Of a stretch of 31,583 nucleotides of DNA, positions 1,502-21,409 are shown piece after piece. Within the stretch, counting starts at the first letter, position 1. Each line of letters opens with the position of its first letter. The stretch is from the IMG/VR virus record IMGVR_UViG_3300031974_001397, positions 1 through 31,583 of that record; one strand, 5' to 3'. Under the pieces are notes generated by a model. That model saw nothing but the letters and a program-made list of their open reading frames with translations. It did no database searches and was not told where the DNA came from. The DNA comes from a virus. Both the position numbers and the translations under genes were made by a program.

Positions 1502-4500
1502 ATGGCGTATTACGTAGGTACAAAAGAATTTCCTAGCGTCTATGCGGCGGTTAGATACTTAGCTCAAAACCCTCAAGAGGGGGTAGAGATTACGTCTGAG
1601 CCTGTAGAAAGCAAACCTGCGCCTGCAACAAAAGAAGGAATGCTAACTGGAACAGACAGCGATCCAACAAAAAGACAGCCTGGAGAAACTGACTCGATTG
1701 ATCCTAATGCTGAAGCGCCAGTTCCAACAACAGCCCCAGATGAGTATTCAGAGGTAGAACTTCCTCCGCCATCTGCGCCAGAAGAAGCCGAAGCACCTCC
1801 ACCTACACCGCCCCCACCACCTCCGCCTTCAGAACCAGAGGGTGTTACTACCTTTACGTTCTTTGAAGGTGTTGAGTTAGGTGATGCAAATCCTGACTTT
1901 TTATATAAAAGAGGCGATGCCACACAAGTAACAAAAGTTGAACTACGTGAGTACTTTAATGCTCAGGGTTCTGGGATGCTCAAACGAGCCTTCGGTGACT
2001 TTGATAACTATCTTGCTTACATGACTGAGCGAGAGCAGTTAATTGAGTCAGGTGACTACGATGTAGGTAATTGGGATGAGTACACCGGCTCACTAACTGA
2101 AGATGAGTTAATGATTCTTGAAGGCGAGGATCTTACTCAATACTCCGATAGCGATCAGGATGCTTACACCGAAGCTTATGGTCAGCAGATGCAGGAACAG
2201 TCGTCTGCTTATGATCGTTGGGTTAACTCTGAAGCTAATCAAGCACTCTTAGCCAAGTACGGTGTTGGATCTACTATCTATAACAACGATGGCGATAAAT
2301 ACGAGTGGAACGGCTCTGCTTATGTAAAGACAGTTAAACAAGATCAAGCAGGTCTTGTTGACTACGTAAAGATGGGCATCGTTACTGCAATGAGCATTAT
2401 GACGGGTGGCGCAGTATCTGCTGTTGCTCCGTCATTAGGCACTGTTGGCTCTTCTGTTGTAAGCAATGCGATTATTCAAGGAATTACTACTGGCTCTATA
2501 GATCCTGATGAGCTTTTGCAAACAGCCGCCACAGCAGGTTTTAGTCAGGCGCTTAATCAGGTTATTGGCCCTGCTTTATCTGAAGCTATGGGCGGCTTAG
2601 ATATTTCAGAAATAACTGGCATTGAAGAGCTAGACAACGTTCTTAATGCAATGGGTCAAACAGCTATCCGTCAAGCGGTATTTGATGGTGAGCTAGACAT
2701 GGAAGGCATTGTTGCATCGGGATTGCTGACTGGTGCTCAAGAGGTTGTTGAGTTTTTATTTAGCGACCTTGCTGGGCAACAAGCAATTTCTGAAGAGCAA
2801 CAGCGAGAGCTAGAAGAACGCTTTGCAGAATACGCGGCTATTGTTGATGAAGACACGATGGCAGAAGTTAACAGAGTCATGGGAAATACTGTTAACGAAG
2901 CTATAGCCGGACAGCAAAACGAAGCAATGCGTAATCAGCTTCAAGCTTTAGCAGGAAACTTACAGTCTATTTATGAAGAGGCTTACGACGTATCGCCTCA
3001 GCCTAGCGGCCCTTCTTTAGAAGACTTTATGGCTAGTTCAGTTGATGATGCAGATTCAGAGCTTGCAGACACTACGGCTGACTTAACTACTGACACAACT
3101 GTTCAGCCTGAACCTATGGCAGAAATAACAAACCCATTTGAAGGCGATGAGTTAATTAATGGCGTTTACTACAATGATGCTGGATTTCCAGTAGGGATTA
3201 GCCCAGACGCTACACCTGAGCAAATTCTTGAGCAGTTTGTTAATGACAAAAACGCATGGACTACAACGTCTGGCGTATCTGCTCACGGCCTTCCTCCAGA
3301 AGCTATAGCTGTATTAATGCAAGATGGTGACTTGCAAGGTCTTAGTGATCTTCTTGTAGAAAACAATTTAATTTTGGCTCAAGACTCTGGTGGTGGGTAC
3401 ATTTTAATTTCTGGCTCAGAAGCTACTACAGGTTTTCATACCAGTCTTGACCAAGATGCTTTGTTAAATCTTGATCCACCTTCGAACGAAAGAATTGTTC
3501 CGCCTCCTACATCTACAGATCCTGCTTTAGATCCTATGGATACAAGTGATGTTTCTCCAGAAATACGAGACATTTTGCTTGATGTTCAAGAGGCACCAAC
3601 GGCACCGCTTGAAGCAGAGGTAGAAGTAGAGCCGTTTGAGTATGAAGAGGAGCCAGAGTTAACGCCTGAGCCTCCGCCCGAACCAGAACCCGTTGAACAA
3701 GAGCAACCACAACAAAGCCAAGGTGAAGAAGGTGCGCCTGCACCTGCGCCTGCACCTGCACCAGTACCACCACCACCGCCACCTCCACCTGTTGTGCCAC
3801 CGCCACCACCACCGCCTCCTCCGGTTCCGCCACCAGAGCCACCGCCTGAGGCACCGCCAGAAGCACCGCCTGCTGGTGAGGCACCTGCTGGTGAGGCACC
3901 TGCACAACCTCCTGTTGATCCATCTACAGGACAGCCGGTTACTGGACAGCCTTCTGCACAACCAGTTGAAGGACAACCTGTAGAAGGACAACCAGTTACT
4001 GGAGAGCCTACATCTGGTGCGGGGCAACCTGCTGACACAGGAGCGGCAACAGGACAGCCTCCCGTGCAACTGCCTGCGGATCCAATTCAAGAAGCTATTG
4101 ATGCGGCGACACAAACCGATGTAGGTACAGGCCAAGGAACTGGAGTTCCGGCAGGTGAGCAAGCTACAGGTCAGGAGTCAGATACTCCAATTACAGATGC
4201 GTTATTCCCCGAATACGCTACTGAACCTCCACCTGCTCAACCTACCGAGCCTGTGCCATCTACTGAGCCTCCTAAAGATGAAGGAATAGGAGTGCCTACA
4301 CCTGTAGAAACACAGCCTCCAACGCCTGTAGAACAGCCTTCAGGAGTAACAACAGAAGATGTAACCAACATTGTTAATGAGGCAGTTAGTAACATTCCTC
4401 CTGGCATGACATCAGACGATGTTAGAACAATAGTTAATAACGCTATTGGCAACATCGAGTTTCCAGAGGGCATGACTGAGGATCAGGTTGGAGAGATTGT

Positions 4501-5362
4501 AAAGACTGCTATTGGAAACATAGAGTTCCCGCCATCTGTAAGCGAAGATCAAGTCAATGAGATTGTTGGGAGTGTTCAACAAGATTTAAGTGACGCAATA
4601 ACTCTTGGTCAGGAAGCGGCGGCAGAAGAAAGGCTAGAGTTACAAGAAGCCATCATTGCTGTTGGCGGAGATATAACAAAGCTTGACGAGGCAACACAGA
4701 AGCAGTTTGAGGAGTTTGGCGAAAGCATTGATGAACTATTTGAAGGTGTTGGTGTTGATATTGAAGCTTTGCAGGAAGGCCAAATTAGCCAAGCAGAAGC
4801 GTTTGCCCAATACCAAGAAGATGCACTAGCACAAGCTGAAGAAGCGGCAGAAGAAAGAGCTGATCTGCAAGAAGCCATTATTGCTGTTGGTGGCGACATT
4901 ACTGCATTAGATGAATCTACTAAGAAGCAATTTGAAGAATTTGGCGGCACCGTTGATGATCTGTTCTCAGATGTAAACGTCGATATCAAGGCACTGCAAG
5001 AAGGTCAGATCAGTCAGGCTGAAGCACAAGAAGCATTCCAGACTAGTGTTTCTGAGCAGTTTGGTGATGTTACTGGACAGCTAGGCGAAATAGGCGGTGA
5101 AGTCAGCGGGTTAATGTCCGAAGTATCTGGTATCGGTCAAGGCTTAGAGGGTTTGGGCCAAGGTATTGCTGGCATTGGAGAAGGCTTGGGTGCGGGTCTG
5201 TTAGGTCTTGCGGCACAGCAAGCTATGTTGCCTGGTCAAATAGCGGCGGCCACACCTATCCAACCCCAAAAGTTTGAGAAGTTCCAGCGAGGTTTAACAC
5301 GACGTAAGTTGGCTGACCCGTTACGGATTGGAATGTTTACTGGAGGCGCTAGAAGCGTATGA
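1502..5362 (+). CDS. 1286-aa Pro-rich, repeat-containing virion protein
   Basis: This long protein starts at ATG directly after the holin TAA. Visible regions: a Pro/Glu-rich stretch (about 60-115); a hydrophobic Gly/Ala-rich region (about 285-430) that could insert in or cross a membrane; an acidic region (about 690-735); a poly-Pro/Ala block (about 740-810); degenerate G-Q-P repeats (about 812-860); three related repeats with core EDQVxxIVxxAIGNIEFP (about 955-1025); two copies of a roughly 75-residue helical repeat with core LQEAIIAVGGDIT (about 1038-1187); and a Gly-rich tail. Size, order and repeats suggest a virion structural or ejected protein. A tail-associated role fits because the two tail genes follow immediately. 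No enzymatic motif was seen and no named family recognised. Confidence 0.8.
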   Translation: MAYYVGTKEFPSVYAAVRYLAQNPQEGVEITSEPVESKPAPATKEGMLTGTDSDPTKRQPGETDSIDPNAEAPVPTTAPDEYSEVELPPPSAPEEAEAPPPTPPPPPPPSEPEGVTTFTFFEGVELGDANPDFLYKRGDATQVTKVELREYFNAQGSGMLKRAFGDFDNYLAYMTEREQLIESGDYDVGNWDEYTGSLTEDELMILEGEDLTQYSDSDQDAYTEAYGQQMQEQSSAYDRWVNSEANQALLAKYGVGSTIYNNDGDKYEWNGSAYVKTVKQDQAGLVDYVKMGIVTAMSIMTGGAVSAVAPSLGTVGSSVVSNAIIQGITTGSIDPDELLQTAATAGFSQALNQVIGPALSEAMGGLDISEITGIEELDNVLNAMGQTAIRQAVFDGELDMEGIVASGLLTGAQEVVEFLFSDLAGQQAISEEQQRELEERFAEYAAIVDEDTMAEVNRVMGNTVNEAIAGQQNEAMRNQLQALAGNLQSIYEEAYDVSPQPSGPSLEDFMASSVDDADSELADTTADLTTDTTVQPEPMAEITNPFEGDELINGVYYNDAGFPVGISPDATPEQILEQFVNDKNAWTTTSGVSAHGLPPEAIAVLMQDGDLQGLSDLLVENNLILAQDSGGGYILISGSEATTGFHTSLDQDALLNLDPPSNERIVPPPTSTDPALDPMDTSDVSPEIRDILLDVQEAPTAPLEAEVEVEPFEYEEEPELTPEPPPEPEPVEQEQPQQSQGEEGAPAPAPAPAPVPPPPPPPPVVPPPPPPPPPVPPPEPPPEAPPEAPPAGEAPAGEAPAQPPVDPSTGQPVTGQPSAQPVEGQPVEGQPVTGEPTSGAGQPADTGAATGQPPVQLPADPIQEAIDAATQTDVGTGQGTGVPAGEQATGQESDTPITDALFPEYATEPPPAQPTEPVPSTEPPKDEGIGVPTPVETQPPTPVEQPSGVTTEDVTNIVNEAVSNIPPGMTSDDVRTIVNNAIGNIEFPEGMTEDQVGEIVKTAIGNIEFPPSVSEDQVNEIVGSVQQDLSDAITLGQEAAAEERLELQEAIIAVGGDITKLDEATQKQFEEFGESIDELFEGVGVDIEALQEGQISQAEAFAQYQEDALAQAEEAAEERADLQEAIIAVGGDITALDESTKKQFEEFGGTVDDLFSDVNVDIKALQEGQISQAEAQEAFQTSVSEQFGDVTGQLGEIGGEVSGLMSEVSGIGQGLEGLGQGIAGIGEGLGAGLLGLAAQQAMLPGQIAAATPIQPQKFEKFQRGLTRRKLADPLRIGMFTGGARSV
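4616..5065 (+). repeat. Two ~75-residue tandem repeats inside the long Pro-rich protein
   Basis: Two consecutive units of about 225 bp encode closely related helical segments. Each begins A-E-E-R-x-x-L-Q-E-A-I-I-A-V-G-G-D-I-T and continues through K-Q-F-E-E-F-G, then V-D-I-x-A-L-Q-E-G-Q-I-S-Q-A-E-A. DNA third positions have drifted more than the protein, so the duplication is not recent and the protein is under selection. Boundaries are approximate. Confidence 0.8.
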
Positions 5363-10162: not shown

Positions 10163-12924
10163 TGACAAAGAAGATTAGCAGGGTAGAGCTAGACAATGGC
10201 GAGGTTGTGTCTATAGAGCATCCAGAAGGGTGGACTGATCTTCAGATAACAAACTACGCCCTTCTTAATGCGCCACAAGCAAAGCGAACTAGCCAGCATG
10301 ATGCTTCTGGGCCAGCTAACAAAGATGATGAGATAACAATTTCTGATCTTGTTCAGCTAGGAATTGCAAGATTTGGAATTCAGTTTGTGCCTGATGTTTT
10401 CCTTATGAGTCCAGAAGAGTTTAGAAAAGACATGGACTTGGCGTTTTCTGGAAGAGAGCGAGAAACGATCATGCAGAGAGATGAAAGGCTGGCTAGAGAA
10501 TTTGCAGGAATACCTGCTGATATGCCACTAACTCTAACTCAAGAATTGTTTGCGGCTGGCGGTGACCCTCTTTCTTACATGGGGGTGAAAGCGCCTTTAA
10601 AAGTTGCAGGGGGCGTTGTTCAAAGACAGGTAGTTCCGTTTTTAAAAACCGCAATCCCTGCAATTACTAGTACAGCCGCTGGCTTGCTTGGAGGTATGAC
10701 TGCATCTCAGTTGGCCGCAGAAGCTGGCGCCGGCCCAATTACTCAGGAGATTGCCGCAATAACGGCTGGTGGCGTAGCAGGCGCAACAACCAATGTTGTT
10801 ACAGCACCAGCAATTATGACAGTAGGTAAAGTTGCGGGAGACCTGAAGACAAAACTTACTGGAGAAAAAACAGACATCTTTGGCCCCGCATCTGAAGCAA
10901 TGGCAAACAGCCAGGTTCGAGCAGAGATTAATAGAATTGCACAAACAACAAAGCCTGAAGAAGTGGTTCGTGCTGTTGATAATCTAGCATCACTTAAAGA
11001 AGAAATACCTGGATTAGAGATTGGCGGACTTGTTGGAGCGATGTCTGACAATCCTGTCGTTAGGGATTGGGTAAGAAAAACAACCCAAGCAAACAAAAGC
11101 TTCCAAAAAGAAATGGAAGAAATCTTGGTATCTGATGCAAAAAAATTATCTGAAAGATTTGAAACAATCGCAGGGAAGGTAACTGGCGAAGCGGAAGATT
11201 ACAGCGTTGCAAGAGCGCAGATGGAAAGTATTGCGCGAGAGTCATTTAAGGCCCAAGAGCTTGCCTCAATTAAGAAGTTTGAAAAGCAAAAAGAAAACAT
11301 TGATAAGGCGCTCGTTAAATTGTCTACACGGATAACGCCAGATGAAGATGCTGACTTGATATCCATCGGTGAAGCCGCTCAGAAGCTGTCTAGCAAGCGT
11401 GAGGCTTTAATTAGGGGAGAGGCTGATAAGCTTTATGACTCAACAAAAGCAATCGCTAATAGGATTACGCTAAACCCAGAGTTAGTTAGGGATGTTTACA
11501 GCCAGTTTAGAAACGTCAGATTGTCAGATGTGTTTGGGCCAAACAGTAAGGTTGGCGCACAGCTTGAAGCAAGGTGGATGCCGAGAGAAGTGGAAGGCAA
11601 AGTTACTGTACCTAAAGCTACAGGCACCGACGTAACATCCTTAAAAAAGGCTGTGAACACAGAAATTAACACCCTATCTAACAGAGCAAGAACTCCAGAG
11701 ATTGACCAAAGAATAGAGCGTTTATATAAAACGAAAGGTGTTGTTAACGATATGCTTGCGAAGATGAGGGCAACAGATCCTGAGTTTGTTGACTCTCTTG
11801 CTAACGCAGATAAGTTTTATTACGAACAGCTTGGCCTCCCTATGCGAGCGGAGGGCATGAAGGACTTTACCTCTCGCAGGTTTAAAGCCGAAGCCGCAGA
11901 AACTCTAATGAACTACGAAAAGGCTATGGACTACATTAACTTTGTTGGCGCAGAGGGAATGCCAGTAGTTCGCCACGCTATACGACTAAACGCAGAAAGG
12001 TCTGGGGTCATAGGGCCAGATGGAAACATTCAGCAGAATCAGCTAGGCAGGTTTGTTAGAAGAAACCAACGAATGATTCGTGAGTTCGGAATGGAGGCTG
12101 AGTTTGCAGACATTGCGGGAAGGCTTCGTACCATTAGAAACACTGAGGCGCGTCACCAAGAAGCATATAACGAAAGAGCTAAAGAGCTTTCTAATAGCTT
12201 CTTTAAGAGTATAGAGAACAACAATCTCAGCACTGTAGTTAACAAAATGAAGTCTAATCCTGGCGATAGAAAGCGCTATATAAGCGAGATCAATAAACTT
12301 GCCCCAAAGGAAAAAGAGATCATTATGTCTGGTTTAAGACAGGAGTTTCTTTCTCAGGGGCTTATGACCAAGGGGTCAATGCAGGAGTATGTAAACAGTA
12401 ATGTTGAGGCAGTAAGCGATATATTTGGCGCTGGCTATGCTCAGAACATCAATAAGCTTGCAGGTCTTAGGGATCTCATGGAGAACGTAAGCAAGACGCT
12501 CCTTGATTCTATGGGGTCATCCCCTGTTGTAGATACAGTTCAGGATGTTACCGGCGTTAGTACTGCTGAGTATCTTGGTACATTTAGAAACCAAATCCTT
12601 TCCCCAGAAAGGAAGGCAATTAACCTGGTAGCGAAGGCTTCTATAACAAAAGGCAGAGAGAAGTTCTATGTAAAGTCTGCCGAAATACTCAAAGACCCTG
12701 ATGTTGTTGAAAGACTAGCCAATCCTCCAAAAAGCGAGATGATGCAGTACGTTAGGGAGAAAGGGGTTGGTGCGATTGACTATATAAAAGACATCGGCAC
12801 TTTCTATACAGAAGCACTAAAAGGCACTGTAACCCTATCAACCTTAAAGGCTTTATACGCGGCTCAAGATATACCTGTTGAGCTACAGGAAGGGATTGAT
12901 CAGGAAAGAGCGGCGGCGCTTTAA
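10162..12924 (+). CDS. Large internal virion-type protein, 920 aa
   Basis: Begins at ATG 10162 sharing the A of the previous TAA. Residues about 1-35 form a small domain (R-V-E-L-D-N-G-E-V-V then W-T-D-L-Q-I-T-N-Y) of a kind seen at the N-terminus of other large podoviral internal proteins. Residues about 145-215 are hydrophobic and Ala/Gly-rich (AITSTAAGLLGGMTAS; AAITAGGVAGATTNVV), suited to membrane insertion. From about 290 on it is long, charged and helical. I see no lytic transglycosylase motif. It is the last gene of the rightward late block, and its TAA overlaps the stop of the convergent NinG-like gene. DNA-ejection function is inferred. Confidence 0.6.
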   Translation: MTKKISRVELDNGEVVSIEHPEGWTDLQITNYALLNAPQAKRTSQHDASGPANKDDEITISDLVQLGIARFGIQFVPDVFLMSPEEFRKDMDLAFSGRERETIMQRDERLAREFAGIPADMPLTLTQELFAAGGDPLSYMGVKAPLKVAGGVVQRQVVPFLKTAIPAITSTAAGLLGGMTASQLAAEAGAGPITQEIAAITAGGVAGATTNVVTAPAIMTVGKVAGDLKTKLTGEKTDIFGPASEAMANSQVRAEINRIAQTTKPEEVVRAVDNLASLKEEIPGLEIGGLVGAMSDNPVVRDWVRKTTQANKSFQKEMEEILVSDAKKLSERFETIAGKVTGEAEDYSVARAQMESIARESFKAQELASIKKFEKQKENIDKALVKLSTRITPDEDADLISIGEAAQKLSSKREALIRGEADKLYDSTKAIANRITLNPELVRDVYSQFRNVRLSDVFGPNSKVGAQLEARWMPREVEGKVTVPKATGTDVTSLKKAVNTEINTLSNRARTPEIDQRIERLYKTKGVVNDMLAKMRATDPEFVDSLANADKFYYEQLGLPMRAEGMKDFTSRRFKAEAAETLMNYEKAMDYINFVGAEGMPVVRHAIRLNAERSGVIGPDGNIQQNQLGRFVRRNQRMIREFGMEAEFADIAGRLRTIRNTEARHQEAYNERAKELSNSFFKSIENNNLSTVVNKMKSNPGDRKRYISEINKLAPKEKEIIMSGLRQEFLSQGLMTKGSMQEYVNSNVEAVSDIFGAGYAQNINKLAGLRDLMENVSKTLLDSMGSSPVVDTVQDVTGVSTAEYLGTFRNQILSPERKAINLVAKASITKGREKFYVKSAEILKDPDVVERLANPPKSEMMQYVREKGVGAIDYIKDIGTFYTEALKGTVTLSTLKALYAAQDIPVELQEGIDQERAAAL

Positions 12925-13346
12925 TCCCAGCTAACAAACTCTAACCAACCTGCTACCCCTGAGGCTCGTTCGTTCTCCATACGTGCGGCCTCAGTTTTAT
13001 AGTGTTTAGCGATCAGCTTCTGTTCCTTGTTCATCCTCTTGCCAAGGTTGATGTCCTCTGCCTTTTCCCTAATCAACTCCAAGGCACCTTCGCCATAGGT
13101 GTCAATATAGTGACGTACAAAGTAATCGGGGTTGCTACCGTACTTCTGGTGACAGCCGTAGCAGTGAGCAAAGGCATTCATTGCATCGTACCGGATACCC
13201 TTCTTTGATCGGCTGAAGTAGTGAGAGCAGTGTAGTCCAACACTGTTTGACTCGTACTGTGCGCCACACCCCTGGCACTTGAAGTCATTGCGTAGCCTGA
13301 CGCATCTACTGAACCAATGATCTGCCGCTGTTCTTTTTAACTTCAT
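12921..13346 (-). CDS. NinG/Rap-like recombination nuclease
   Basis: 141 residues. I chose the ATG at 13346 because GGAG with an 8-base spacer precedes it; a TTG eight codons upstream would overlap the preceding gene. Paired Cys/His motifs fit the zinc-binding core of NinG (lambda Rap) proteins: C-x-x-C-G at about 24-28, L-H-C-S-H-Y-F-S-R at 38-46, and A-H-C-Y-G-C-H-Q-K at 60-68. Rap cleaves branched recombination intermediates such as Holliday junctions and D-loops. At 141 aa it is shorter than lambda NinG (about 200 aa), like many marine phage versions. The NinB-like gene and the annealing protein nearby support a recombination role. Confidence 0.75.
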   Translation of the reverse strand: MKLKRTAADHWFSRCVRLRNDFKCQGCGAQYESNSVGLHCSHYFSRSKKGIRYDAMNAFAHCYGCHQKYGSNPDYFVRHYIDTYGEGALELIREKAEDINLGKRMNKEQKLIAKHYKTEAARMENERASGVAGWLEFVSWD

Positions 13347-13359
13347 CTTGATCTCCAAG

Positions 13360-14109
13360 CTATATTTCAAACGATAGCTGTACGTCTACCCTGTCTCTTT
13401 CCTCATCCCAATGCAGTGCGCTGGCTGAGTTAATAGACTCTATTCTTTCCACCAGAATGCTCGCTCTGGTCTCTTTTGATTTCGGGCTATACGATCCAGC
13501 CCATTTGCTATCTATCCCTATGTTTCTTGCTACGTTTGTGGAGTCTGCACTCGACAAAGGAAGGTACTTAAACACGGACTTGTTAAGCATTCTAAGACCA
13601 TGAAGCTTTGCTATTGGCTGTCCGTTGTCATCAACCACATGGCGTATAACGTCTCTCATTCTGCTGACGCACTTACCAGGATTTCGTACATCGTATTCGC
13701 CGCATGATCCAATAGCGACTCTGGGGTATGTATTGCATAGTCTTATAAACCGATCTTCTGGTTCATTCATATGCCATACAGGGACACCAACATAGTTACC
13801 GTGAGGCCATGCCGCCAGCAACTCATCGTTTGCCTGAGAGCCTCCATCAATTACGTCGGGTATGATTGCAAAGTCAAAGCGAGGATGATTCTTCCAGCGA
13901 TCAATAAACTCATAATATCCAGACCAGTCGATAGGCTCCCCTGTTTTCCAGAAAGTAAATGCTCCGTTATCTAAACCAAAAGACTGGCAAATCTCCGTAG
14001 CAAGACCGAGCTGATCTGGCCTAGCAAAGCTAACGAAGGCGTGTCTACTCTTCCATGCTCTGATCGCACAGGTGTCTGGTGTTATTGGGCCTCCATGATA
14101 GTGAATCAT
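13360..14109 (-). CDS. DpdA/TGT-like guanine transglycosylase candidate
   Basis: 249 residues. The motif order fits the tRNA-guanine transglycosylase fold used by phage DpdA enzymes, which swap guanine in DNA for a 7-deazaguanine. LDNGAF (46-51) aligns with the TGT DSGGFQ loop, D47 being the candidate general acid/base. AIIPDVID (81-88) and VPVWHMNE (109-116) are barrel strands. VAIGSCGE (131-138) and LHGLRML (169-175) precede LSSADSTNVARN (185-196), which mirrors the TGT nucleophile segment (FDCVLPTRNAR), making D189 the candidate nucleophile. The Cys3-His zinc site of tRNA-type TGT is not evident. GAGGATCTATC precedes the ATG, and the start overlaps the upstream stop. No preQ0 synthesis genes are in the window, so any deazaguanine would come from the host or from outside this window. 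Confidence 0.6.
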   Translation of the reverse strand: MIHYHGGPITPDTCAIRAWKSRHAFVSFARPDQLGLATEICQSFGLDNGAFTFWKTGEPIDWSGYYEFIDRWKNHPRFDFAIIPDVIDGGSQANDELLAAWPHGNYVGVPVWHMNEPEDRFIRLCNTYPRVAIGSCGEYDVRNPGKCVSRMRDVIRHVVDDNGQPIAKLHGLRMLNKSVFKYLPLSSADSTNVARNIGIDSKWAGSYSPKSKETRASILVERIESINSASALHWDEERDRVDVQLSFEI

Positions 14110-14372
14110 GATAGATCCTCATCCTGTTCGCTTCTTACTGTCCTTATAAAAAAGCCGTGATGGTAAGCTTCCAGCGTTTGCTTCTCGCCAAAGCTTTGAA
14201 ACAAAGCATCGGCCAAATCTTCTTGGTATCCAGAGGTCATGCTTTCGGTTCTGGTTTGAATATCGAATACATTAATCATTCGATGCGACTCAATCGTTAA
14301 CAGGTAACGAATTGGAACTCCATTGTCTGGGCATTCCGCATAAAAAACGTGCTTATAAAAATTCTTATTCAT
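14106..14372 (-). CDS. Hypothetical 88-aa protein
   Basis: Starts at ATG 14372 (overlapping the upstream TGA as ATGA) with AGGA about 9 bases ahead, and ends overlapping the start of the transglycosylase candidate. The N-terminal half is beta-like (KHVFYAECPDNGVPIRYLLT), followed by an acidic helical part and a HHGFFIRTV strand. No family recognised. Translational coupling on both sides puts it in the DNA-metabolism operon. A role as accessory to recombination or base modification is possible, but nothing in the sequence shows it. Confidence 0.7.
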   Translation of the reverse strand: MNKNFYKHVFYAECPDNGVPIRYLLTIESHRMINVFDIQTRTESMTSGYQEDLADALFQSFGEKQTLEAYHHGFFIRTVRSEQDEDLS

Positions 14373-14794
14373 TTCAATTCATCCTTTAGTTGTTGAGGGA
14401 ATGGCACATAGATCTGCTTGTTCTCTGAGAGCCATCTGATTAGCACCTCAGCGGTCTCTGATAGCTCAGCAGGGGTAAGCTTGGTGGTAGTCTCTTTGTT
14501 GAACATGGCCTTTGCAGTGGGCTTGTAGAGCATCTCCTTTACCAGTACCTCAGTAAACGGTATCTCAAAGTTATCACTGAAGGGATGTCGTACCCAGTAG
14601 CCAGCATCGTTTAGCTCAATAGCTATCTGCCTGAACCACAAGTGCATGGCGTTGTTCTGCCGGTCACTACGTGTGGTGTCCTTGATCGAGTACATGATGT
14701 GCTTGCCATCCTCGTACTGCTTTTGCACGAAGCTAATAAAGAACTTCAGTTTGTTTTTGTTATCGACTATCCAGCGATGTGCAGAGTCTGTCAT
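14369..14794 (-). CDS. NinB/Orf-like recombination protein candidate
   Basis: 141 residues, ATG 14794 preceded by TGGAGATGAT. The central motif T-R-S-D-R-Q-N-N-A-M-H-L-W (41-53) resembles the R-S-x-x-Q-N-x-x-(M/L)-x-x-W signature of NinB (lambda Orf) proteins. The C-terminus ends in a helix plus Y-V-P-F-P, as in many phage NinB-like proteins. Lambda Orf binds ssDNA and SSB and helps recombinases load. Same-operon linkage to a NinG-like gene, the classic nin-region partner, supports the call. The N-terminal 35 residues are unlike Orf, so the assignment is moderate. Confidence 0.5.
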   Translation of the reverse strand: MTDSAHRWIVDNKNKLKFFISFVQKQYEDGKHIMYSIKDTTRSDRQNNAMHLWFRQIAIELNDAGYWVRHPFSDNFEIPFTEVLVKEMLYKPTAKAMFNKETTTKLTPAELSETAEVLIRWLSENKQIYVPFPQQLKDELK

Positions 14795-20394: not shown

Positions 20395-21138
20395 TTAACC
20401 CCTTGCAATAATTGCCGTATTGAATTTATTGGAACGCGACCCATGTACAGCGATTGCGATATTCTGAGATACCCCGTCGCATAACTTGCAGTCTACGCAC
20501 TGAATACCGTCCGAATCTGCCAGGCATTCGATCTCACCAGGTAATAAACCATCGCCTTCCATTGCCACGCGGAATGTTTTAGCGCCTTGCTTTTGATATT
20601 TGGTCGCTTGTTTGGGGGAGTCAGCCGATACCTGGCATAACGTGAAATACCGCTGATCAAAATTCTTGTGATTGGCCTGGTGCGTGTAGCCGGTATGCGC
20701 TCTAGCCAATCTTGCGATGATGTGGAATACCTCAAAGGGTACAGCGGCGGGATCACCATACGCGCCCAATCTCACAACACGCGACCGAAAGTAATCAGCG
20801 TGGAGCTGGTGATCATATTGTTCATACAATCCGCGCTTGTAGCTTTTCCAAATCTGATTAGGTGCCTGGTAAACGCTCACATAACACGCGCCATTATTGA
20901 AGTGACGATGGGGACAGCTACCACAGATCGATGAATCCTCGCCGGTCTTTGTAGCTTCCACGGGGTTGATATCGTCGCGGAGTATCCAGGTTTGGATTGC
21001 ATCGCCGGTCTTTACGTTAGACGTTGATAGCGTAGCGATAACCACAATCGGAGCGCCGTCTAGTACCGATGGGCCCTGGTATAGAATAAAGCCACGTCGT
21101 TTAGGTAATGCTTTAGGGGGTGTCTTTTTGCCTAGCAT
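20395..21138 (-). CDS. Conserved Cys-rich phage/plasmid protein, function unknown
   Basis: 247 residues. I chose ATG 21138 with AAAGAG 8 bases ahead; the frame stays open upstream but without a ribosome site. Landmarks: G-P-S-V-L-D-G-A-P-I-V-V-I (22-34), T-G-D-A-I-Q-T-W-I-L-R-D-D-I (44-57), C-G-S-C-P-H-R (72-78) with C85, L-G-A-Y-G-D-P-A-A-V-P (124-134), A-H-T-G-Y-T-H-Q (147-154), and a terminal cluster C-V-D-C-K-L-C (214-220) with C205. This set recurs in a family common on phages and plasmids (I recall DUF7227). The Cys motifs imply metal or Fe-S binding, and the barrel-like strand motifs suggest an enzyme. It is the largest gene of the leftward cluster. Confidence 0.65.
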   Translation of the reverse strand: MLGKKTPPKALPKRRGFILYQGPSVLDGAPIVVIATLSTSNVKTGDAIQTWILRDDINPVEATKTGEDSSICGSCPHRHFNNGACYVSVYQAPNQIWKSYKRGLYEQYDHQLHADYFRSRVVRLGAYGDPAAVPFEVFHIIARLARAHTGYTHQANHKNFDQRYFTLCQVSADSPKQATKYQKQGAKTFRVAMEGDGLLPGEIECLADSDGIQCVDCKLCDGVSQNIAIAVHGSRSNKFNTAIIARG

Positions 21139-21220
21139 GTCGATATCTCTTTTTGTTTGATTGGTTGATGGTGCAAAGCGCACCCGAAAGGACACCCGCA
21201 GATGTCCGATCGGCTGAGCT
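21139..21220 (-). promoter_or_regulatory. Structured leader upstream of the Cys-rich gene
   Basis: 82-bp gap holding two tandem hairpins: GGTGC/GCACC (21170-21174 with 21180-21184) and GGACA/TGTCC (21190-21194 with 21203-21207). On the minus strand the GGACA hairpin is followed by TTTC, only a weak terminator. This may be an attenuator or transcript-stability element for the largest gene of the cluster. Confidence 0.35.
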
Positions 21221-21409
21221 TTAATCCCATTGCTTAGGATATTTTTCTGTCCAGTAAACGCGCTCGCCGTCATCGCCGCCACTCAGCTCGTGACATAGCG
21301 GGACAATGTATCTGGCCGCATAATCCTCGTATGAGAGGCGCGTATCGTGTGATTTGACTTCACAAACGATATCGCCGTTTTCCTCTACCAATTGATATTC
21401 GTGATACAT
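21221..21409 (-). CDS. Hypothetical 62-aa protein
   Basis: I chose ATG 21409 (MYHEYQLVEENGD), preceded by GAGGATCAAACC; the upstream extension overlaps the neighbour. Starts with a beta hairpin, then S-Y-E-D-Y-A-A-R-Y, ending E-K-Y-P-K-Q-W-D. No family recognised. Confidence 0.65.
   Translation of the reverse strand: MYHEYQLVEENGDIVCEVKSHDTRLSYEDYAARYIVPLCHELSGGDDGERVYWTEKYPKQWD

Follow-up and report, generated by a model that had tools for sequence, protein, structure and literature searches.

A predicted DNA 7-deazaguanine transglycosylase of the DpdA-only group is encoded with a candidate QueF-like partner in a phage recombination operon

Introduction

Phages that encode the DNA 7-deazaguanine transglycosylase DpdA without precursor genes were described in 2019 as a group of 76, gammaproteobacterial cluster included, and that description regarded the base in the DNA of such DpdA-only phages as difficult to predict (PMC6884629). 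dADG has been measured in the DNA of phages 7-11 and MED16, both of which encode only dpdA, the origin of dADG in MED16 being left open (PMC8306585). In phage 9g, dpdA is accompanied by phage-encoded FolE, QueD and glutamine-amidotransferase genes, and dG+ is the predicted end product. A histidine at position 196 of the 9g protein separates DpdA from DpdA2, which has none (PMC6884629). Among T-fold enzymes, QueF and QueF-Like (QueF-L) share a cysteine thioimide chemistry in which the intermediate is resolved by hydride for QueF and by ammonia for QueF-L (PMC5485725).

Here we describe a related locus in a 31,583-nt stretch of viral DNA (hereafter the window). An earlier note on this DNA had proposed that one of its genes encodes a DpdA-like enzyme and that the phage may modify its DNA using host preQ0. 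As DpdA-only phages have been described and two of them carry dADG, that hypothesis is well founded and, for relatives, no longer new; the window gene is a further member of the group. The new element of this analysis is a cassette consisting of dpdA and a small gene that we term mini-QueF; among the few papers found by full-text searching for DpdA and QueF, no title or abstract mentions such a partner.

The window encodes a member of the DpdA family

The dpdA gene is located on the minus strand at 13360..14109 (ATG at 14109, stop codon at 13362-13360) and encodes a protein of 249 aa, predicted to be a DNA 7-deazaguanine transglycosylase from its PHROG_887 membership, tblastn matches, invariant residues, AlphaFold model and pN/pS. 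Both motifs highlighted by the earlier note, D47-N-G-A-F51 and S187-A-D189-S-T-N-V-A-R-N196, were found in this reading frame where it had placed them.

Analysis with hmmscan assigned the protein to PHROG_887 (E 2.3e-88), which also contains the known DpdAs of phages 9g (E 2e-98), 7-11 (E 7e-74) and SW9 (E 8e-95). The 7-11 DpdA was 33.6% identical to the window protein over 85% of the query (tblastn, E 8e-24) and is similar in length at 234 aa, as are others in the family. Furthermore, comparison of the 9g and window DpdA profiles using hhalign gave P 1.4e-9 over 151 columns, both aspartates included. The proposed DpdA identity was therefore upheld. With tblastn, relatives (E<=1e-3) were identified in 142 phage records, and many of these carry the annotation queuine tRNA-ribosyltransferase; 331 IMG/VR stretches and 15 bacterial genomes also contain relatives. 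The Pfam TGT profile PF01702 did not match the window DpdA, a shallow host TGT profile of 6 sequences gave no significant alignment (hhalign, P 0.31), and searches of Pfam, NCBIfam and PDB sequences returned nothing useful.

Alignment of 39 diverse DpdA homologues (identity down to ~27-33%) revealed D47, G49, D85, P110, H113, H170, P184, D189 and S190 to be invariant. In the alignment with 9g DpdA, the window residues D47, D189, H113 and H170 are all matched, and the homologous 9g enzyme thus has its D72, D215 and H196 represented in the window. The sequence KLH170G lies opposite KVH196G of 9g, making H170 the equivalent of H196. As D47 and D189 are both invariant across diverse homologues and aligned with 9g DpdA, we conclude that the motifs containing them did not arise by chance. 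The pN/pS of the gene was ~0.01-0.09 against close relatives.

The AlphaFold model of the window DpdA (pLDDT 91) shows a barrel-like alternation of strands and helices, with D47 and D189 situated in strands E43-47 and E187-190, respectively. The model is confident, but Foldseek comparison with the PDB returned generic TIM barrels only (best E 2.7e-3), with TGT absent from the top 50. Assignment to DpdA is therefore based on sequence and conserved residues, and the link to TGT runs via the published DpdA-TGT relation, the MED16 DpdA having been linked to 2ASH by HHpred (PMC8306585).

As noted previously, the zinc site of tRNA-TGT is not evident: the C-terminal CxCxxC...H is absent from the window DpdA, the last cysteine of which is C147. 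Missing zinc ligands are, however, normal for the DpdA family and common to its members. The window protein shares PHROG_887, the aspartate pair, the histidine and the lack of precursor genes with the DpdA-only ('singleton') gammaproteobacterial phages (Hutinet 2019; MED16 DpdA/TGT_1 cluster). Thus, it belongs to a described group whose members share the lack of zinc ligands, and the suggestion that it represents a divergent subfamily is not correct. Taken together, the window protein is very probably a DpdA acting on DNA.

A small QueF-like protein is encoded upstream of dpdA

The earlier note had found no visible precursor genes. This held for folE, queC, queD and queE, but an overlapping gene for a QueF-like T-fold protein had been missed, and the final base may therefore be more than preQ0. 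This gene, mini-QueF (14106..14372, minus strand), encodes 88 aa, and its 3' end overlaps the dpdA start by 4 bp (ATGA). The product belongs to PHROG_37496, a function-unknown family, and is predicted to be QueF-like on the basis of AlphaFold, Foldseek, hhalign and the invariant residues C14 and E51.

The AlphaFold model of mini-QueF (pLDDT 93) has the order E-E-H-H-E-E of a T-fold (beta2 alpha2 beta2). Its best 12 Foldseek matches in the PDB were all to the archaeosine synthase QueF-Like (5K0P/5JYX), with E values from 1.3e-4 and TMq up to 0.80, followed by GTP cyclohydrolase I. Among viral structure models, two unnamed proteins ranked first (the top one, at 35% identity, is likely a family member) and an annotated archaeosine synthase ranked third. 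Comparison with a QueF profile of 22 sequences using hhalign gave scores of 25.6-29.1 (P 4e-4 to 2e-3), the best of 60 column shuffles reaching 18.2; the match is modest. A bimodular gamma QueF profile from only 6 sequences gave no significant match. QueD was ruled out as the identity of the partner (profile P 0.19). Sequence searches of Pfam (PF14489), NCBIfam and the PDB did not detect mini-QueF, and no family member scored above the PF14489 cut-off.

C14 and E51 are each conserved in 64/64 family members. The profile match places C14 on the catalytic cysteine of QueF and (H/Q)E51 on the FHE motif, such that mini-QueF and the bacterial QueF nitrile reductase (PF14489), which has the same T-fold, are colinear in catalytic Cys, VE and HE motifs. 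Unlike bacterial QueF, mini-QueF falls below Pfam detection and has no NADPH-binding motif of the form E(S)K(S)xK(L)Y, which was found in 0/64 members and in 16/22 QueF sequences by the same pattern. Near C14, where the acid/base aspartate of QueF sits, position 17 is N in 35 and D in 29 members and position 16 is D in 2/64; in the mini-QueF Cys loop, no strictly conserved residue corresponds to the acid/base aspartate of QueF and QueF-L.

Possessing the cysteine without the NADPH motif, mini-QueF should resemble QueF-L. The best structural match, QueF-Like of Pyrobaculum calidifontis, likewise has a single conserved cysteine and no NADPH motif. It differs from mini-QueF in that identity is only 13-16%, its length is about 100-109 aa as opposed to 88, and mini-QueF is a bacteriophage protein whose presumed substrate is DNA rather than tRNA. 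Action of mini-QueF on a 7-deazaguanine nitrile appears somewhat likely, while the assignment of G+ specifically as its product is tentative.

The window copy departs from two residues held by most members, carrying F for E36 and Q for H50. Against the homologues of three other loci (L010, L011 and L005), its pN/pS was ~0.3-0.55, compared with 0.08-0.09 for dpdA, synonymous sites being near saturation. Lacking E36 and H50 and evolving faster than dpdA, the window mini-QueF could therefore be weakened.

The two genes are paired across lineages

In 78 loci belonging to three dpdA groups, the gene immediately upstream of dpdA is a member of the mini-QueF family, with a stop-to-start distance of -3 in 57, 0 in 20 and -9 in one. 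When the search was seeded from mini-QueF, dpdA adjoined it in 79/80 IMG/VR loci, 70 times downstream and 9 times upstream, and these dpdA genes fall into several clades. The sole locus of the 80 without a detectable dpdA, YhhQ or QueD-like gene (L327) is a sequence of 4.3 kb. Among annotated phages, mini-QueF was present in 4 records representing 3 phages, with dpdA as its neighbour every time. These are Pseudomonas phage Epa33 (two records), Rhizobium phage RHph_X2_30 and Microcystis phage Mae-JY30, the last having the two genes in reverse order.

A tree of 154 non-redundant DpdAs was used to follow the association. Given its well-supported branches, the distribution of the mini-QueF neighbour requires 10 or more gain or loss events, and the window dpdA falls in a three-row island with mini-QueF (100% support) inside a fully supported clade of 55 rows that is otherwise without it. 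This pattern suggests an exchange of partners, as opposed to simple shared ancestry of the region. Conversely, 70/154 non-redundant dpdA loci are without mini-QueF, YhhQ and QueD-like genes alike; many dpdA loci thus lack mini-QueF, which is therefore not required for DpdA. The overlapping mini-QueF is what the window adds to the DpdA-only arrangement, since 7-11, SW9 and most enterobacterial lambdoid members do not have it.

Supply of preQ0

The 7-11 and MED16 phages, carrying dADG with dpdA only, provide good support for the earlier proposal that host preQ0 is used (PMC8306585; PMC6884629). Other neighbours of dpdA occur instead of or besides mini-QueF: a Vut_1/YhhQ (preQ0-transporter) gene adjoins dpdA in 17/154 non-redundant loci and a PTPS/QueD-like gene in 6/154, always on the same strand. 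These assignments were Pfam-confirmed in examples, the second QueD-like protein and the PS25B.1 transporter lying slightly under the Pfam cut-off. In two loci (L208:4702-5001; L205:4252-4710), the PTPS/QueD-like small T-fold gene is directly upstream of dpdA, replacing mini-QueF, and is not accompanied by the remaining preQ0-pathway genes. PS25B.1, Pam5 and X2_30 are the named phages counted toward the preQ0 link.

QueF was present in 6/6 named gammaproteobacterial genomes carrying a relative, from which it follows that these six handle preQ0. TGT was present in 7/7 tested genomes carrying such a relative, an acidobacterial MAG among them. Within the window record, FolE, QueC, QueD/PTPS, radical-SAM (queE type) and YhhQ families gave no match, consistent with host preQ0 supply, although this absence is weak because only 31.6 kb are available, as a piece in which no terminal repeat is present. 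The terminase and capsid of the window gave distant matches only, to phages of mixed hosts. The capsid is distantly related to those of cyanophages A-4L and Pf-WMP3.

Proposed pathway and alternatives

We propose that DpdA would exchange guanine in the phage DNA for host preQ0 (7-cyano-7-deazaguanine), with either D47 or D189 expected from homology to serve as nucleophile and the other aspartate as general acid/base, as in TGT. Cys14 of mini-QueF would then attack the nitrile of the base to form a thioimide, the purine being held by Glu51. Without an NADPH motif, mini-QueF may, like archaeal QueF-Like acting on tRNA, resolve this thioimide with ammonia and so yield archaeosine (G+); phage DNA modified in this way would be expected to resist host restriction. 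In this analysis the scheme is founded on family membership, conserved residues, fold prediction and strict gene pairing, from which we infer DNA as the substrate, preQ0 as the donor, the order of the steps and G+ as the product. As a whole, a two-gene DNA-modification cassette of dpdA and mini-QueF inside a nin-like recombination operon is the explanation that we favour, with moderate confidence. The broader generalisation, that phages of several lineages carry this compact cassette and that an 80-90 aa QueF-like enzyme turns preQ0 in DNA into deoxyarchaeosine, we advance more cautiously, as a plausible suggestion. Compared with 9g, for which the predicted end product is the same, one T-fold protein of 88 aa would take the place of the amidotransferase, and preQ0 would come from the host.

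It is unlikely, in our assessment, that DpdA works alone as in 7-11 and MED16, leaving dPreQ0 or dADG, with mini-QueF as a degenerate or non-catalytic T-fold accessory (for example, a preQ0 carrier or DpdA adaptor). Such a role would fit the absence of the partner from many relatives, the occurrence of dADG in dpdA-only phages (PMC8306585), and the loss of E36 and H50 from the window mini-QueF together with its weaker constraint relative to dpdA. Yet the residues needed for QueF-type chemistry, C14 and E51, are conserved throughout the 64 members, and the gene pair is kept in either order. We also consider it improbable that mini-QueF performs other nitrile chemistry, whether by hydrating preQ0 to give the amide (dADG) or by reducing it to preQ1. 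The absence of the NADPH motif from every member, set against its presence in 16/22 QueF, argues against reduction despite the homologous bacterial QueF being a reductase (PMC5485725). Hydration draws on the finding of dADG in phages of the same dpdA group, for which there is no known enzyme making it (PMC8306585), but mini-QueF is not near dpdA in 7-11, where dADG was measured, nor in SW9, a relative of MED16.

Modification of host tRNA, with the 249-aa protein being a tRNA-guanine transglycosylase not acting on DNA, is highly improbable. While many phage homologues carry the queuine tRNA-ribosyltransferase annotation and the natural substrate of QueF-L is tRNA (PMC5485725), the protein has the DpdA-specific histidine, no PF01702 match and no zinc site. 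Additionally, its closest proven relatives modify DNA (PMC8306585), and bacteria carrying relatives already own a TGT.

If the cassette reading is correct, mini-QueF would represent a QueF-Like enzyme that acts on DNA, and would offer a different solution from the large phage archaeosine clusters, one that draws its entire precursor supply from the host. A conserved, overlapping QueF-like neighbour would predict which DpdA-only phages complete the base and what the product is, and the DpdA-only group would split by partner into those with mini-QueF, QueD-like, YhhQ transporter or none. PHROG_37496 would gain a predicted function, and mini-QueF would be an unusually small base-modifying T-fold enzyme that could be studied or used in nanopore or restriction tests.

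Operon context

The dpdA and mini-QueF genes are framed by a lambdoid nin-type operon spanning 12921-14794 of the window, with successive overlaps of 4, 4 and 11 bp. Upstream, a NinB/Orf-like recombination mediator gene (14369..14794, minus strand; PHROG_72, E 5e-9) overlaps mini-QueF by 4 bp. Downstream, a NinG/Rap-like HNH endonuclease gene (12921..13370, minus strand; PHROG_5034, E 1.3e-25) shares 11 bp with the 3' end of dpdA. The former is probably context, outside the modification step, and we treat the latter as context.

Several further observations were made. A C5-cytosine methylase gene follows dpdA in one Epa33-like locus (L086, 3740-5830) and in others of this kind, which suggests stacked DNA modifications. 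The 1.7 kb GenBank record OR850331.1, named Staphylococcus phage SA 1298 Kay, contains an enterobacterial-phage-like dpdA that is 67% identical to that of the window; the record is probably a mislabelled or contaminating sequence. Elsewhere in the window, a minus-strand gene at 20395-21282 encodes a 295-aa protein of the function-unknown family PHROG_2554 with the cysteine motifs GSCPHR and CVDCKLCDG. Finally, a plus-strand gene at 1502-5362 encodes a proline-rich protein of 1286 aa and contains an imperfect 188-nt direct repeat at 4613 and 4838.
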